Of a stretch of DNA of 35,104 bases, positions 6,374 to 35,104 are shown piece by piece; position 1 is the first letter of the stretch; every line of letters starts with the position of its first letter. The stretch is taken from contig JAFSLH010000020.1 in the NCBI GenBank assembly GCA_017448545.1, positions 1-35,104 of the forward strand. Reading direction: 5' to 3'. The position numbers and the translations under genes are program-made. The notes below the pieces were generated by a model, which saw only the letters and a list, made by a program, of their open reading frames with translations, was not told where the DNA came from and ran no database searches. The stretch is from Clostridia bacterium (GTDB lineage: Bacteria; Bacillota; Clostridia; Christensenellales; CAG-138).

Positions 6374-6510
6374 GGAATTCTCCTTTCTTGCCCGCGCTGC
6401 GGCGAGGGCCTCTGTCCTACCCTATGCAATTCCCGCCCGATTTGTGTATACAAAAAGGCGTTGTCTCAAAACTCTTTGAGCGCTGTAAGGGGCTGTTGAT
6501 AAGGCAGGCA
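6374..6510. other. Intergenic stretch between the DUF11 gene and element A
   Basis: It holds the DUF11 ribosome binding site and putative promoter, and a weak hairpin CTCAAA-actc-TTTGAG (6465-6480). Nothing else is recognised. Together with element A it fills the 348-nt gene-free gap before pfkA. Confidence 0.5.
6418..6445 (-). promoter_or_regulatory. Possible sigma-K-like promoter before the DUF11 gene
   Basis: On the minus strand, AC (6445-6444), 17 nt, then CATAGGGTA (6426-6418). This matches the mother-cell sigma-K pattern AC-N16/17-CATANNNTA. No good sigma-A promoter is visible in the 140 nt upstream of the gene. This is a pattern match only, as the motif is short. Confidence 0.3.
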
Positions 6511-6704
6511 GAATTCGCGTTTTCGCCCCGAAGGCTATACTGACGCTATGCCGAGGGCGAAAACGCGGATAATTTGCGGCATATAATCAGAGAAAAGGCG
6601 GATTTTTCCGCCTTTTCCACATACAAGTTAAAACAATTCCAATTTGCCGCAAATGGTCTGACCCCTTTTACGACAGTCTGACCGCACCGGTTTCCCGGTG
6701 CGGC
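6511..6704 (+). repeat. Structured dispersed element, copy A
   Basis: About 190 nt with a second, inverted copy at 33470-33653. In order it contains: GAATTC; stem 1, a perfect 13-bp repeat (6516-6528 with 6555-6567); stem 2, a long-range 10-bp helix (ATTTGCGGCA 6572-6581 with TGCCGCAAAT 6645-6654); inside it a 9-bp hairpin (AAAAGGCGG 6593-6601 with CCGCCTTTT 6608-6616); a conserved 26-nt block at 6655-6680 (starting GGTCTGACCCC, ending GACAGTCTG); and a final 9-bp hairpin (CCGCACCGG 6682-6690 with CCGGTGCGG 6695-6703). It ends 18 nt from the pfkA stop codon. It could be a noncoding RNA, a MITE-like mobile element or a REP-like sequence. The last hairpin may also help end pfkA transcription, though no T-tract follows it. 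Confidence 0.75.
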
Positions 6705-6721: not shown

Positions 6722-7714
6722 TTACACTGTGATATGGCTGCCGACCTGCGTGGCTTCCATGATCTCGTAGCGAATCATCTGCAGGTGCTTCTTCATCGCG
6801 AGCGCTTCCTCGATCGGAATCTCGACGATGCCGCCCTCCTGCGTGCAGATGATGCAGTTGGCGCGGCCTTCCGCGAACGCGCGCACGGCATAGTAGCCCA
6901 TGCGGGTTGCGGTCTCACGGTCGCGCGCATTCGGCGCGCCGCCGCGCTGGATATGACCGAGCACGGTCACGCGCGGGTCGATGCCGATCTCTTCCTTGAT
7001 GCGCTTGCCGATCTCCACCGCGCTGCCGACGCCTTCGGCAACGACGATCATGAAGTGCGTATTGCCCGCGACGCGCGAATCCTGAATCCGCTCCACGACG
7101 TCCTTTTCGAAATTGAGTTCCCGTTCCGGCACAAGAACCGCCGTCGCGCCGACCGCGATGCCGACGTACAGCGCCAAAAAGCCCGCGTTGCGGCCCATGA
7201 CCTCAACGATCGAGCAGCGCTCATGCGACTGCATCGTATCGCGCAGCTTGTCGATGCACTCGATCGCCGTGTTGCACGCGGTATCGAAGCCGATCGTATA
7301 ATTCGTGCAGCCGACGTCGTTGTCGATCGTCGCCGGGATGCCGACCGTCGGAACGCCGAGGCGGGACAGCTCCAGCGCGCCGCGGAACGTGCCGTCGCCG
7401 CCGATTGCGACGACGCCGCCGAGCCCGAGCATCCGGCAGGTGGCGACCGCCTTCTTGCGGCCCTTTTCCGTCATGAAGTCTTCGCTGCGCGCGGTAAACA
7501 GGATCGTACCGCCGCGGGACAGCGTATGGCCCACGTCAGCGGAGGAAAGACGAACGAAGTCCCCCGTAATCAATCCCTGCCAGCCGCGCCGAATGCCGAT
7601 ACACTCGATGCCGTAGGCGCTCGCCGTACGAACGACCGCACGAACCGCGGCATTCATGCCGGGTGCGTCGCCGCCGCTCGTCAAAACACCGATGCGTTTG
7701 ATTTTCTGTTCCAT
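6722..7714 (-). CDS. pfkA: ATP-dependent 6-phosphofructokinase
   Basis: 330 residues, the usual length of bacterial PfkA, which phosphorylates fructose 6-phosphate to fructose 1,6-bisphosphate in glycolysis. The nucleotide loop SGGDAPGMN is at residues 13-21. GGDGT (105-109) has Gly after Asp, the mark of the ATP-using rather than pyrophosphate-using type. PATIDND (127-133) is the catalytic loop, with Ala where PGTIDND is commonest. MGRNAGF and the C-terminal HIQRGG complete the signature. The start has AGGAGG about 10 nt upstream. The gene begins only 30 nt after the DUF1667 stop codon with no terminator between, so it may be read from the glycerol operon. A possible local promoter was not found. 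Confidence 0.96.
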   Translation of the reverse strand: MEQKIKRIGVLTSGGDAPGMNAAVRAVVRTASAYGIECIGIRRGWQGLITGDFVRLSSADVGHTLSRGGTILFTARSEDFMTEKGRKKAVATCRMLGLGGVVAIGGDGTFRGALELSRLGVPTVGIPATIDNDVGCTNYTIGFDTACNTAIECIDKLRDTMQSHERCSIVEVMGRNAGFLALYVGIAVGATAVLVPERELNFEKDVVERIQDSRVAGNTHFMIVVAEGVGSAVEIGKRIKEEIGIDPRVTVLGHIQRGGAPNARDRETATRMGYYAVRAFAEGRANCIICTQEGGIVEIPIEEALAMKKHLQMIRYEIMEATQVGSHITV

Positions 7715-33038: not shown

Positions 33039-33455
33039 ATGAAACTGTTCCGATACGAAGACAAGCTGGTCCGCGTTACGGATCTCGACGGCAGAACGTT
33101 CACCGGCGTTGCGGAATCGTTTCCGTCCGGCTACGGACTGCACGAATTTAACCGCGAGGAAGAAAGCCTGCAGATCGGCGAATGGCAGCTTTTCGAAAGC
33201 GATATTGAAAAAATCGAGATTCTGCCGACGTTCGAGGAGGTCGTGGCGACGATCCCGCCGGGCCGCTACCGCCATTTCAAGGGCAGGGAATACGAAGTTT
33301 TAGCGATCGCGCGCCATTCCGAGACGACCGAACCGATGGTCGTGTACCGGCAGCTGTACGGCGAGCACGGCGTTTGGGTGCGGCCGGCCGATATGTGGAA
33401 CGAGATCGTCGAGCGCGACGGGAAAAAGGTCCGCCGGTTCGAGCGGATCGACTGA
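33039..33455 (+). CDS. DUF1653 protein with an N-terminal Sm-like extension
   Basis: 138 residues. The C-terminal part (73-137) is DUF1653: PGRYRHFKGREYEVLAIARHSETTEPMVVYR, VWVRPADMWNE. DUF1653 proteins are usually only about 70 residues. Here an N-terminal module (1-65) reads VRVTDLDGRTFTGVAESFPSGYGLHEFNREEE and ends ESDIEKIEIL, resembling small LSM/Sm-like barrels. The role is unknown. It is the last gene of the holA run; element B begins 15 nt after its stop codon and supplies the first downstream hairpin. Confidence 0.85.
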   Translation: MKLFRYEDKLVRVTDLDGRTFTGVAESFPSGYGLHEFNREEESLQIGEWQLFESDIEKIEILPTFEEVVATIPPGRYRHFKGREYEVLAIARHSETTEPMVVYRQLYGEHGVWVRPADMWNEIVERDGKKVRRFERID

Positions 33456-33469
33456 TTCCGAAATCAATA

Positions 33470-33653
33470 CGCCCCGGCAAACTTGCCGAGGCGCCAGACT
33501 GTCGTAAAAGGGGTCAGACCGTTTGCGGCGAGGAATGATAATAACACAGCTGTCGGAAGAAAGGGCTCGAAAGCCCTTTCTTTGATTGATATTTCGCCGC
33601 AAACTATCCGCGTTTTCGCTCGGTCGCAGACTTTACGCGAAGAACGCGAATTC
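33470..33653 (-). repeat. Structured dispersed element, copy B (inverted relative to A)
   Basis: Read on the minus strand it has the same order as copy A. Stem 1: CGCGTT-c-TTCGC (33648-33637) with GCGAAAACGCG (33619-33609), one bulge. Stem 2: GTTTGCGGCGA (33604-33594 in rc sense, 11 bp) with TCGCCGCAAAC (33531-33521). The inner hairpin is AAGAAAGGGCT-ttcg-AGCCCTTTCTT (33582-33557, 11 bp, UUCG loop). The conserved 26-nt block (33520-33495) is identical to A. The last hairpin is CGCCTCGGCAA-gt-TTGCCGGGGCG (33493-33470, one G-U pair). Outer ends match at GAATTCGCG. The stretch 33456-33780 holds only this element and the next promoter. Confidence 0.75.
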
Positions 33654-33716
33654 AGAGGCGTTCTGTCAAGGAGGATTTTCAAAAGCACAGTCGATTTTTG
33701 TCGATTGTACTTTTCG

Positions 33717-33745
33717 TTGCATCCTATTGGAATCCGTGATAGAAT
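33717..33745 (+). promoter_or_regulatory. Promoter of the nucleotidyltransferase gene
   Basis: -35 TTGCAT (33717-33722), 17-nt spacer, -10 TAGAAT (33740-33745). The leader of about 29 nt carries GAAGGAA. Confidence 0.7.
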
Positions 33746-33780
33746 CAACGAGACAAATCGCAATTTGAAGGAATCTTATT

Positions 33781-34815
33781 ATGAATACTGTAAATCAAAA
33801 AATCATCCAGGCTGTAATCGACAAGGCAAACATAATATGTCCTGGTTCTTTGGCGCTGATTGGAATATATGGTTCGGCTGACACTGAAGACGAGTATGAG
33901 AAATCGGATTTGGATCTGCTTATACTGATCGAAAATGATGAGGGATGGAAACTTGGAACAGGATTTATTCTTGATGACAGGAAAATCGGATACGATATAT
34001 ATTGCACTAACCTGAGCGGATTGAGATATGATGCAGAATGCCACCATGCTCGTCTGTCTAAGCTGATGGACTCACGGATCGTGTATGTAAAGAATCAAGA
34101 TGCATATGACGAGTTAATGACATTGAGAGCGCAGGCAAAACAGCTTCTGAATTCCGAGGAACGCTTTCAAAGAGCTTATGAATCAGTTGATAAGGCAAAA
34201 ATAGCTTACGCAAACGCCTGTCTGTGCGAGGGATTGGGACAGGTACGTATGGAAGCATACGGCGTTATATCATATATTTCTGATGCTGTAATGCTTTATC
34301 ACGGGAAATATTTTACACGTGGCGTGAAAAGAACATTTGAAGAACTGGCAGCACTGCCGATTGACGATATTTTTATACAATTAATCCAAAAAGCGATTTC
34401 CTGTAAAGATATTGATCAGCTGCGCGATTTGCTTAAGCACCTGATCCTTTATGCGGAAAGTCACATACGAAAAGAGAAACCTAAAGCAAAACCTTCAGAA
34501 TCACTATCCGGAACATACGAAGAAATGTATTCCAATTGGCGAAACAAAGTTGAAGAAGCAGCACAAAATGCGGATGCTTTTGCTTCTTTTATGAATATGT
34601 GCAGTTTTCAATTAATGCTTTCTGAGATCGCGGAGGAAGTTGAAATTGGTTCCTTCTCTGTTATGGATGTGTATGACCCGGATTCTCTTGAAGATAATGT
34701 AAAAATATTTGATAAGTATTTGCAGAAATATGAGCAAGTATATATACGGGCGGGAATAAGCGTCAAACGGTATTCCAATGTTGAAGAATTTGTCGCGGAC
34801 TATTTGTCTCAATAG
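33781..34815 (+). CDS. Nucleotidyltransferase-domain protein (polymerase-beta superfamily), AT-rich
   Basis: 344 residues, with AAGGAA about 8 nt before the ATG. The N-terminal minimal nucleotidyltransferase motif is IGIYGSADTEDEYEKSDLDLLIL: Gly 31-Ser 32, then Asp 43 and Asp 45, with Asp 72 in GYDIY as likely third metal ligand. A helical domain of about 250 residues follows, similar in layout to aminoglycoside or HEPN-linked transferases. It may transfer a nucleotide to a small molecule or protein; the substrate is unknown. Codon use and base composition are clearly more AT-rich than its neighbours. It lies between element B and an insertion-sequence end, which suggests horizontal transfer. 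It has its own promoter and terminator. Confidence 0.82.
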   Translation: MNTVNQKIIQAVIDKANIICPGSLALIGIYGSADTEDEYEKSDLDLLILIENDEGWKLGTGFILDDRKIGYDIYCTNLSGLRYDAECHHARLSKLMDSRIVYVKNQDAYDELMTLRAQAKQLLNSEERFQRAYESVDKAKIAYANACLCEGLGQVRMEAYGVISYISDAVMLYHGKYFTRGVKRTFEELAALPIDDIFIQLIQKAISCKDIDQLRDLLKHLILYAESHIRKEKPKAKPSESLSGTYEEMYSNWRNKVEEAAQNADAFASFMNMCSFQLMLSEIAEEVEIGSFSVMDVYDPDSLEDNVKIFDKYLQKYEQVYIRAGISVKRYSNVEEFVADYLSQ

Positions 34816-34865
34816 CAGATCGTCTGTTTACCAAATTCCAATTTGTCCGGATCAAACAAATACAG

Positions 34866-34903
34866 ACCTTCCGGGAAACAGTTCCTTCTCGGGAGGTTTT
34901 TGT
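34866..34903 (+). terminator. Terminator of the nucleotidyltransferase gene
   Basis: ACCTTCCGGGAA (34866-34877) pairs with TTCTCGGGAGGT (two G-U pairs) around a 7-nt loop and is followed by five Ts. It lies 50 nt after the stop codon. Confidence 0.8.
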
Positions 34904-34966
34904 TTGTATAAAGCGCGCGTATCACCTCCGCATGGTAGTGAGTAAGTGCGCTCTTCAACAAAGAGG

Positions 34967-35016
34967 GGCTGTCGCAAAAGTGATCTGAACCCAAAAAGTT
35001 AGACACGAGATTCAAA
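34967..35016. mobile_element. Terminal region of an IS3-family insertion sequence
   Basis: From about 34981 the sequence TGATCTGAACCCAAAAAGTT followed by AGACACG resembles the terminal inverted repeats of IS150/IS3-group elements (TG...ACCCCCAAAAGTT...GAC). It ends just after the transposase stop codon. The preceding GGGGCTGTCGCAAAA (34967-34981) is also of a type seen at insertion-sequence ends and may be the edge of another element. The exact boundary cannot be set, because the other end lies outside the window. Confidence 0.6.
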
Positions 35017-35104
35017 TTAAGCAGCATCGAGGGCTTGCTTTCTGTGAACAGCAGGAGGTAAGCCCTTTAGCTTTGCCTTGATCCTACGGTTATTGTAGTA
35101 ATCA
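35017..35104 (-). CDS. IS3-family transposase, C-terminal end (partial)
   Basis: The last 28 codons on the minus strand read DYYNNRRIKAKLKGLPPAVH then RKQALDAA and stop at 35017-35019. 'YYNN.RIKAKLKGL.P..YR' is the conserved C-terminus of the IS3/IS150-group OrfB DDE integrases. The rest of the gene runs off the right edge, so intactness cannot be judged. Confidence 0.85.
   Translation of the reverse strand, partial: DYYNNRRIKAKLKGLPPAVHRKQALDAA

Follow-up and report, generated by a model that had tools for sequence, protein, structure and literature searches.

Group IIC introns, which combine a ribozyme with a reverse transcriptase (RT) and are much larger than the element described here, prefer terminator hairpins as insertion sites. 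For the IS1182 family, insertion sequence (IS) catalogues give direct repeats of 0–60 bp. Within this family, IS1272/TnSha1 of staphylococci targets terminator hairpins and deletes part of the hairpin, with no duplication according to the passages cited (PMC4923244), and ISCbo5 of Clostridium is described in the cited excerpt as inserting at hairpins at gene ends (PMC3098183). For elements of the QMITE2 (full-length ~190 bp) and BrickBuilt types, the cited excerpts give duplications of 7–9 bp for the former and CT and GAAA as examples for the latter (PMC10969869, PMC4596501).

Here we describe a structured repeat that occurs as two copies, A and B, in a 35,104-nt stretch of DNA (hereafter the window; contig JAFSLH010000020.1, positions 1–35,104) from the Clostridia bacterium assembly GCA_017448545.1. 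The repeat is real and well structured, and we estimate a probability of about 80% that both copies belong to a family of MITE-type DNA transposons of gut Clostridia that carry no genes and measure ~224 bp. On the strength of sequence comparison, this reading is preferred over that of an RNA gene. The terminator-duplicating family appears to be a new one of a known kind of element, with an unusual target duplication, and no paper naming it in the title was found in the open-access literature searched.

Results and discussion

Copies A and B in the window

The original prediction held that A and B share a 35-nt block, GCCGCAAA(T/C) followed by 26 nt. The block was found at 6646–6680 on the forward (+) strand and at 33495–33529 on the reverse (−) strand, with 0 chance matches expected from shuffled sequence. 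The order of stem 1 (P2), stem 2 (P3) around a hairpin (P4) and then the block is the same in both copies, and the compensation noted in stem 2 (A–T in A versus G–C in B) was confirmed. Both stems are enclosed by a 24-nt imperfect terminal inverted repeat that had been missed. Since the partner of the block in A lies at 6489–6512, the block is one arm of an inverted repeat (P1) enclosing everything else. The predicted repeat thus stands while its left boundary was wrong, because the P1 left arm of A starts outside the interval originally given (6511–6704).

Copy A matches the covariance model R1 over its full length (6489–6680, +, 154 bits, positions 1–192 of 192), A being one of the 46 sequences used to build the model. 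On the + strand it comprises the P1 5′ arm, which is the left terminal inverted repeat (6489–6512), P2 (6513–6570), P3 (6572–6654, with arms at 6572–6581 and 6645–6654), P4 within P3 (6592–6617), and the P1 3′ arm, which is the right terminal inverted repeat and lies within the shared 26-nt block (6657–6680). By-eye comparison with CAGCGTGTCAAAAAACCTTTTGACACGCTG of other copies identified the preceding segment (6457–6488, +) as a degenerate, own-genome form of the left-end hairpin, designated hairpin0. Copy A looks like a recombinant, as it joins the body of an own-genome subfamily to the right end of another class, with the presumed phosphofructokinase terminator behind it.

The "terminal hairpin" that begins 1 nt past the block had been counted as part of the element and is probably host sequence, its position fitting the terminator of the neighbouring gene. 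The gene beside A encodes phosphofructokinase (PFK; 6722–7714, −) and that beside B a DUF1653 protein (33039–33455, +). By analogy with the empty sites of four other insertions described below, the hairpin after A (6682–6703, outside the element, with the gene end at 6722) is presumed to be the PFK terminator, and that after B (33469–33494, −) the terminator of the DUF1653 gene. As the terminal hairpin is apparently host sequence, its sequence difference between A and B does not represent compensatory evolution.

Copy B (33495–33669, −, 118 bits with R1) has a displaced left inverted repeat: a second unit, breaking into the element at ~33654, separates the left arm from the rest of the copy, and the left end of B lies beyond the contig. 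Of a third copy, a right-end fragment is present (34965–34980, −), truncated by an IS whose first position is 34981.

Anatomy and distribution of the family

Complete copies consist of hairpin0 (CAGCGTGTCAAAAAACCTTTTGACACGCTG or a GCTTG form), the left repeat CAGRCTGTYGGGAAGGGAGGCAGA, P2, P3 around P4, and the right repeat TCTGACCCCTTTTACGACAGYCTG. Few unpaired bases separate the helices at the junction of P1, P2 and P3, and the arms of P1 are ~144 nt apart. Intact copies measure 223–227 bp between their direct repeats at ten loci free of inserts and contain no transposase gene; the spacing is 346 and 1788 bp at two loci with inserts. In many individual copies, the outermost bases of the two P1 arms pair with each other (CAGA/TCTG, CAGG/CCTG, GGGG/CCCC, CATG/CATG, and TAGA/TCTA), with the outermost scored P1 pair unpaired in 14 of 94. 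Some copies carry extra sequence at the P2 apex. An insert of ~62 nt (GATGGCGACGCGCG...), which constitutes a third, small nested repeat, was recognised by eye in L011, L038, L048, L073, and L087, either at the P2 apex or between P3 and the right repeat with GGTC on either side (L038 and L073). At L314 and L315, copies of the element are arranged in tandem, head-to-tail.

A search with the 26-nt right end, allowing up to 3 mismatches, gave matches in 21 of 61 genomes, all belonging to the genus of the window, and 0 matches in the control. The left end was found in 16 of the 23 genomes of the genus. The covariance model, built from 46 copies and comprising 192 positions with 51 pairs, matched 22 of these 23 genomes at E ≤ 0.001, with 2 to 74 matches each; the sum of 360 is an upper bound because a copy sometimes gives a second, weak match on its opposite strand. 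The richest genomes were G009 (74), G020 (60), G000 (37), G007 (29), and G008 (22). Across the order (396 genomes, 3 of them from this genus), a search with stricter filters and at most 6 candidates scored per genome gave strong matches in those 3 and in one sister genus, where four genomes had them. The matches in eight other genomes of the order were weak (E of 5.6e-6 or worse), and 8 of the 10 rows were confined to the P3/P4 region. An exact-pattern scan of GTDB contigs returned at least 50 stretches from metagenome-assembled genomes (MAGs) titled uncultured Clostridia, Clostridiales, Bacillota or Christensenella, many of them ruminant, and 0 viral contigs matched the exact right-end pattern. 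The search of the host and its relatives that had been proposed for the element, together with a covariance model, thus yielded further copies with covariation, and the outcome that was to count against it, a lack of such copies, did not occur.

Insertion at terminator-like hairpins

At 12 of 12 loci picked for visible repeats, the element is flanked by perfect direct repeats of 19–32 bp, each of which is a whole hairpin. For a wider count we used the 73 copies with both ends and flanks, 72 of 145 right ends being dropped as there was no left end nearby or no flank. Direct repeats exceeded the 99% level, set by mismatched pairing of left and right flanks from different loci, in 25 of the 73 and were absent from the other 48, copy A included. 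A hairpin followed the right end in 31 of 73 copies versus 20 of 1234 random places. The direct repeat was strongly associated with hairpin0 (22 of 27 copies with it versus 3 of 46 without it, p = 5e-11). Six occupied sites were queried after deletion of the insert: at four of them, relatives aligned continuously across the site, and at two none did. All 12 relatives aligned at these empty sites have, as judged by eye, a single hairpin between the same flanks, with a sequence that differs by species. Because whole-hairpin direct repeats occur at occupied sites and single hairpins at empty ones, we conclude that terminator-like hairpins are the target of the element and become duplicated when it inserts. 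Judging from their shape and place, the target hairpins probably terminate transcription. In a copy from the sister genus (L327), a near-identical hairpin lies on either side, with one base different.

The own-genome subfamily (GGGGCTGT...CAGCCCC) consists of near-identical copies and looks recent, and no direct repeat was found in it: L006, L007, L008, L080, L081, and L131 as well as the related L130 had direct-repeat scores of 5–7, and their flanks were also read by eye. Some of the 48 copies without the repeat share a gene end across several species as judged by eye (L023/L026/L029/L059 and L067/L150), and these may simply be old. At L066, L069, L023, L026, L029, and L059, the element abuts apparent stop codons (by eye) and a terminator hairpin distinct from the element is missing, as if P4 had taken its place.

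The inverted repeats, the dispersed copies, the direct repeats, and the empty sites with a single hairpin lead us to a MITE-type transposon. Several of the features expected of such an element were observed, namely terminal inverted repeats, a short length without a transposase gene, dispersed multiple copies, and a target site duplication (in 25 of 73 copies, A not among them). Insertion at a hairpin or terminator, which is expected of an IS1182-derived element, was found for the intact class. Of the three possibilities raised in the original prediction (a small RNA, an RNA-level mobile element or a hairpin-end MITE), the MITE is the best supported and the RNA-level mobile element is disfavoured, RT having been found in 3 of 23 genomes, of which G007 alone is among the five richest. 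In the mechanism that we envisage, a transposase supplied in trans would bind the paired ends, make one cut in each target strand, at either foot of the terminator palindrome, and join the element there. Gap filling would then leave one complete terminator on each side, and with one terminator per side the stop signal of the host gene would be kept. P4 may serve as a spare terminator.

Long target duplications might also arise if RT copied a folded RNA at nicked terminators, as in a SINE-like retro-element, which would in addition produce 5′-truncated copies. Several copies do keep the right end without the left part, a count affected by unequal thresholds at the two ends, and G007, with 29 model matches, has three matches to RVT_1. 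However, RVT_1 was found in only 3 of 23 genomes (G006, G007, and G010; incomplete MAGs), the genome of the window being without it, and none was seen in the incomplete MAGs G009, G020, G000, and G008 that have 74, 60, 37, and 22 model matches. Conserved inverted repeats at both ends are, moreover, typical of DNA transposons, and we regard a retro-element as very improbable.

Pairing and strand of the fold

Among the 46 copies of the model, 96.3% of the cells were paired and 111 cells were changed on both sides. Two-sided changes were observed in 30 of the 51 pairs across the four helices, and 0 of 500 shuffles reached any of the five measures; related sequences may beat such shuffles without structure, and the numbers of pairs and of types deserve more weight. 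Slid structures paired in 37–50% of the cells of the same copies. In 98 model-aligned copies, an alignment that leans to the structure, 35 of the 51 pairs had two-sided changes. The three helix segments of P1 paired in 93–99% of cells in the 46 copies and in 91–96% in the 98. The claim, originally made from A and B, that pairing is kept through two-sided changes is strongly supported across both sets.

A transcribed, structured small RNA or a domesticated 3′ UTR/terminator element, with the fold selected at the RNA level and with mobility incidental or past, would be expected to give such pairing figures (96.3% of cells, 111 two-sided cells, 0 of 500 shuffles). A strand preference would also be expected, and departures of the G–U type outnumbered those of the A–C type overall (184 versus 73) and in P4 (11 versus 1) and P2 (37 versus 16). 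Two common but not fixed U–G pairs, present in 48 and 42 of 98 copies, fit the + strand only. Leaving the two most frequent wobble pairs out of the count reduced the overall excess to 94 versus 72, and the column-wise sign test (22 versus 17) was not significant. In P3 the two types were nearly equal (12 versus 15), and in P1 the ratio of 76 to 41 became 34 versus 41 once one wobble pair was left out. For folding, copy A gave z values of −7.7 (+ strand) and −6.4 (− strand), and the right part of B (33495–33653) gave −4.4. In a consensus scan, P4 of B was flagged as terminator-like (+ strand, 33556–33583) and P4 of A was not. The sharing of gene ends by several species, mentioned above, likewise suits a domesticated element. 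Against it, no promoter-like site was found at A, and the Rfam comparison suggested along with the original prediction gave 0 matches above the gathering score in the window and five loci (L125–L127, L138, and L139). We consider a small RNA of this kind unlikely. The departures by helix suggest that P1 and P3 are DNA-level inverted repeats and that P4, perhaps also P2, may be under selection as RNA.

Paired changes could in principle come mainly from correction of the inverted repeats, by template switching between the arms, and not from selection on the fold. Two-sided changes without one-sided intermediates fit such a process, for example at columns 115/133, where A–U occurs 35 times, G–C 11 times, and intermediates are absent. 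On the other hand, the outer bases of P1 still match copy by copy across the ~144 nt between its arms, and the unpaired columns are twice as variable as the paired ones (entropy 1.07 versus 0.47). Correction as the main source of the paired changes is thus doubtful in our judgement.

Search for the mobilising enzyme

These incomplete MAGs, in which the DDE families PF13751 and PF01609 were searched for, yielded neither a mobilising enzyme nor an autonomous copy in which the same ends flank a transposase. PF13751 (DDE_Tnp_1_6) was present in 4 and PF01609 (DDE_Tnp_1) in 5 of the 23 genomes, and none of these matches was in the five richest genomes (G009, G020, G000, G007, and G008). When hairpin0 was used to look for other left ends, none of the 13 loci read (of 30) had a transposase; many known copies were missed by this search because the pattern fixed the loop length.

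Two loci with IS1182 transposases in the genus pass the NCBIfam cut-off, and the left ends at the IS1182 loci are GGGGCTGTTAAAAAG and GGGGCTATGAAAAAAG. One IS1182 left end of the genus, GGGGCTGTT-, resembles GGGGCTGTTG- of the own-genome subfamily, the likeness having the form GGGGCTGTT...AAG. As GGGGCTGT is a short motif, this resemblance is weak evidence, and a comparison of ends at the IS1182 and DDE_Tnp_1 loci gave a short likeness only. The flanks of two IS1182 copies were read and no duplicated hairpin was seen. At L165 (1881–2100) and L168, the right end of IS1182 is seemingly a palindrome with halves like its own left end, as in hairpin0 (by eye). Given the end resemblance and the published targeting of terminators, the transposase would most likely be of the IS1182 type. 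We put trans-mobilisation by such an enzyme first because IS1182 transposases occur in the genus and terminator-hairpin targeting has been published for them, and offer it, within the transposon reading, as a guess with less than even odds.

Two other candidates were rejected. The long copies L125–L127 are not an autonomous form, because their extra DNA belongs to a distinct unit that has inverted repeats of its own (AGAGGC-TTCTGTCAAGGGGGATTT) and cargo genes that vary. The IS at the window edge, which we take to be IS3-like from a motif, interrupts right ends of the element at all three of its own-genome places and was dismissed as the mobiliser. These places (34981–35104 in the window and, in G000, C25:129879 and C33:20385) each lie inside the right end of a 224-bp element, which suggests that this end is a hot spot for the IS3-like element.

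Nested units with cargo genes

The unit that interrupts B (33654–34964) is a second, nested mobile unit with an end, AGAGGCGTTCTGTCAAGG, at 33654. Its far end is not reached; it contains a single cargo gene and, near 34915–34958, a conserved segment. The cargo ORF (33781–34815, +) encodes 344 aa with a weak match, below the curated cut-off, to Polbeta nucleotidyltransferase. The same architecture was found in L125, L126, and L138. Nested units with the inverted repeats AGAGGC-TTCTGTCAAGGGGGATTT, the conserved segment (GCGCACTTACTCACCACC...), and varied cargo are present in the window (33654–34964) and at L125, L126, L127, L138, L139, L140, and L159. The cargo of similar units (L125–L127, L138–L140, and others) comprises signal-peptide or lipoprotein-like proteins (by eye), DUF5050, a methyltransferase, and a zinc ribbon. 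Several units occupy the same place in the 224-bp element, the boundary between the left repeat and P2, and one lies reversed in P4. A cargo gene beginning MKRIVCLT... is common to two genomes at different element positions (L138 and L159). The nested unit resembles a gene-cassette system, with no enzyme visible.

A more speculative scheme, which we hold to be improbable, would link these units with the fold and the target. The enzyme of a terminator-homing element would recognise a folded single strand (RNA or ssDNA) and not the double-stranded inverted repeat, so that structure guides both the ends and the target, hairpin joining hairpin. Duplication of the full terminator, together with P4, would make insertion at gene ends harmless, and for the nested cassette system the element would be the site at which single cargo genes are inserted.

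Comparison with known systems

The MITE-type element is a clear natural example of a bacterial transposon whose target duplication is an entire terminator-like hairpin, which could allow it to occupy gene ends and leave transcription units intact. With the empty sites and many copies at hand, the mechanism is testable, in particular how the transposase measures out the palindrome. The element also shows how covariation in four helices, a signature of structured RNA, can be mimicked by a transposon, a point of importance when metagenomes are searched for new RNAs by covariation.

The element is like group IIC introns in its preference for terminator hairpins and unlike them in that the window and five loci had no Rfam match and no RT was found in 20 of the 23 genomes. 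With QMITE2 and BrickBuilt, as portrayed in the cited excerpts, it shares the absence of a transposase gene, inverted repeats at the ends, the capacity to fold, an intergenic location, and multiple copies, and its size is similar to that of QMITE2. In place of the short duplications given there, it is flanked by a complete hairpin of 19–32 bp; covariation in four helices was measured for the present element. Like the IS1182 family in the cited descriptions, it inserts at terminator hairpins without a sequence consensus, and the first bases of the ends are alike. Unlike IS1272/TnSha1 as characterised in the passages cited, the element has no transposase gene and duplicates the whole hairpin.
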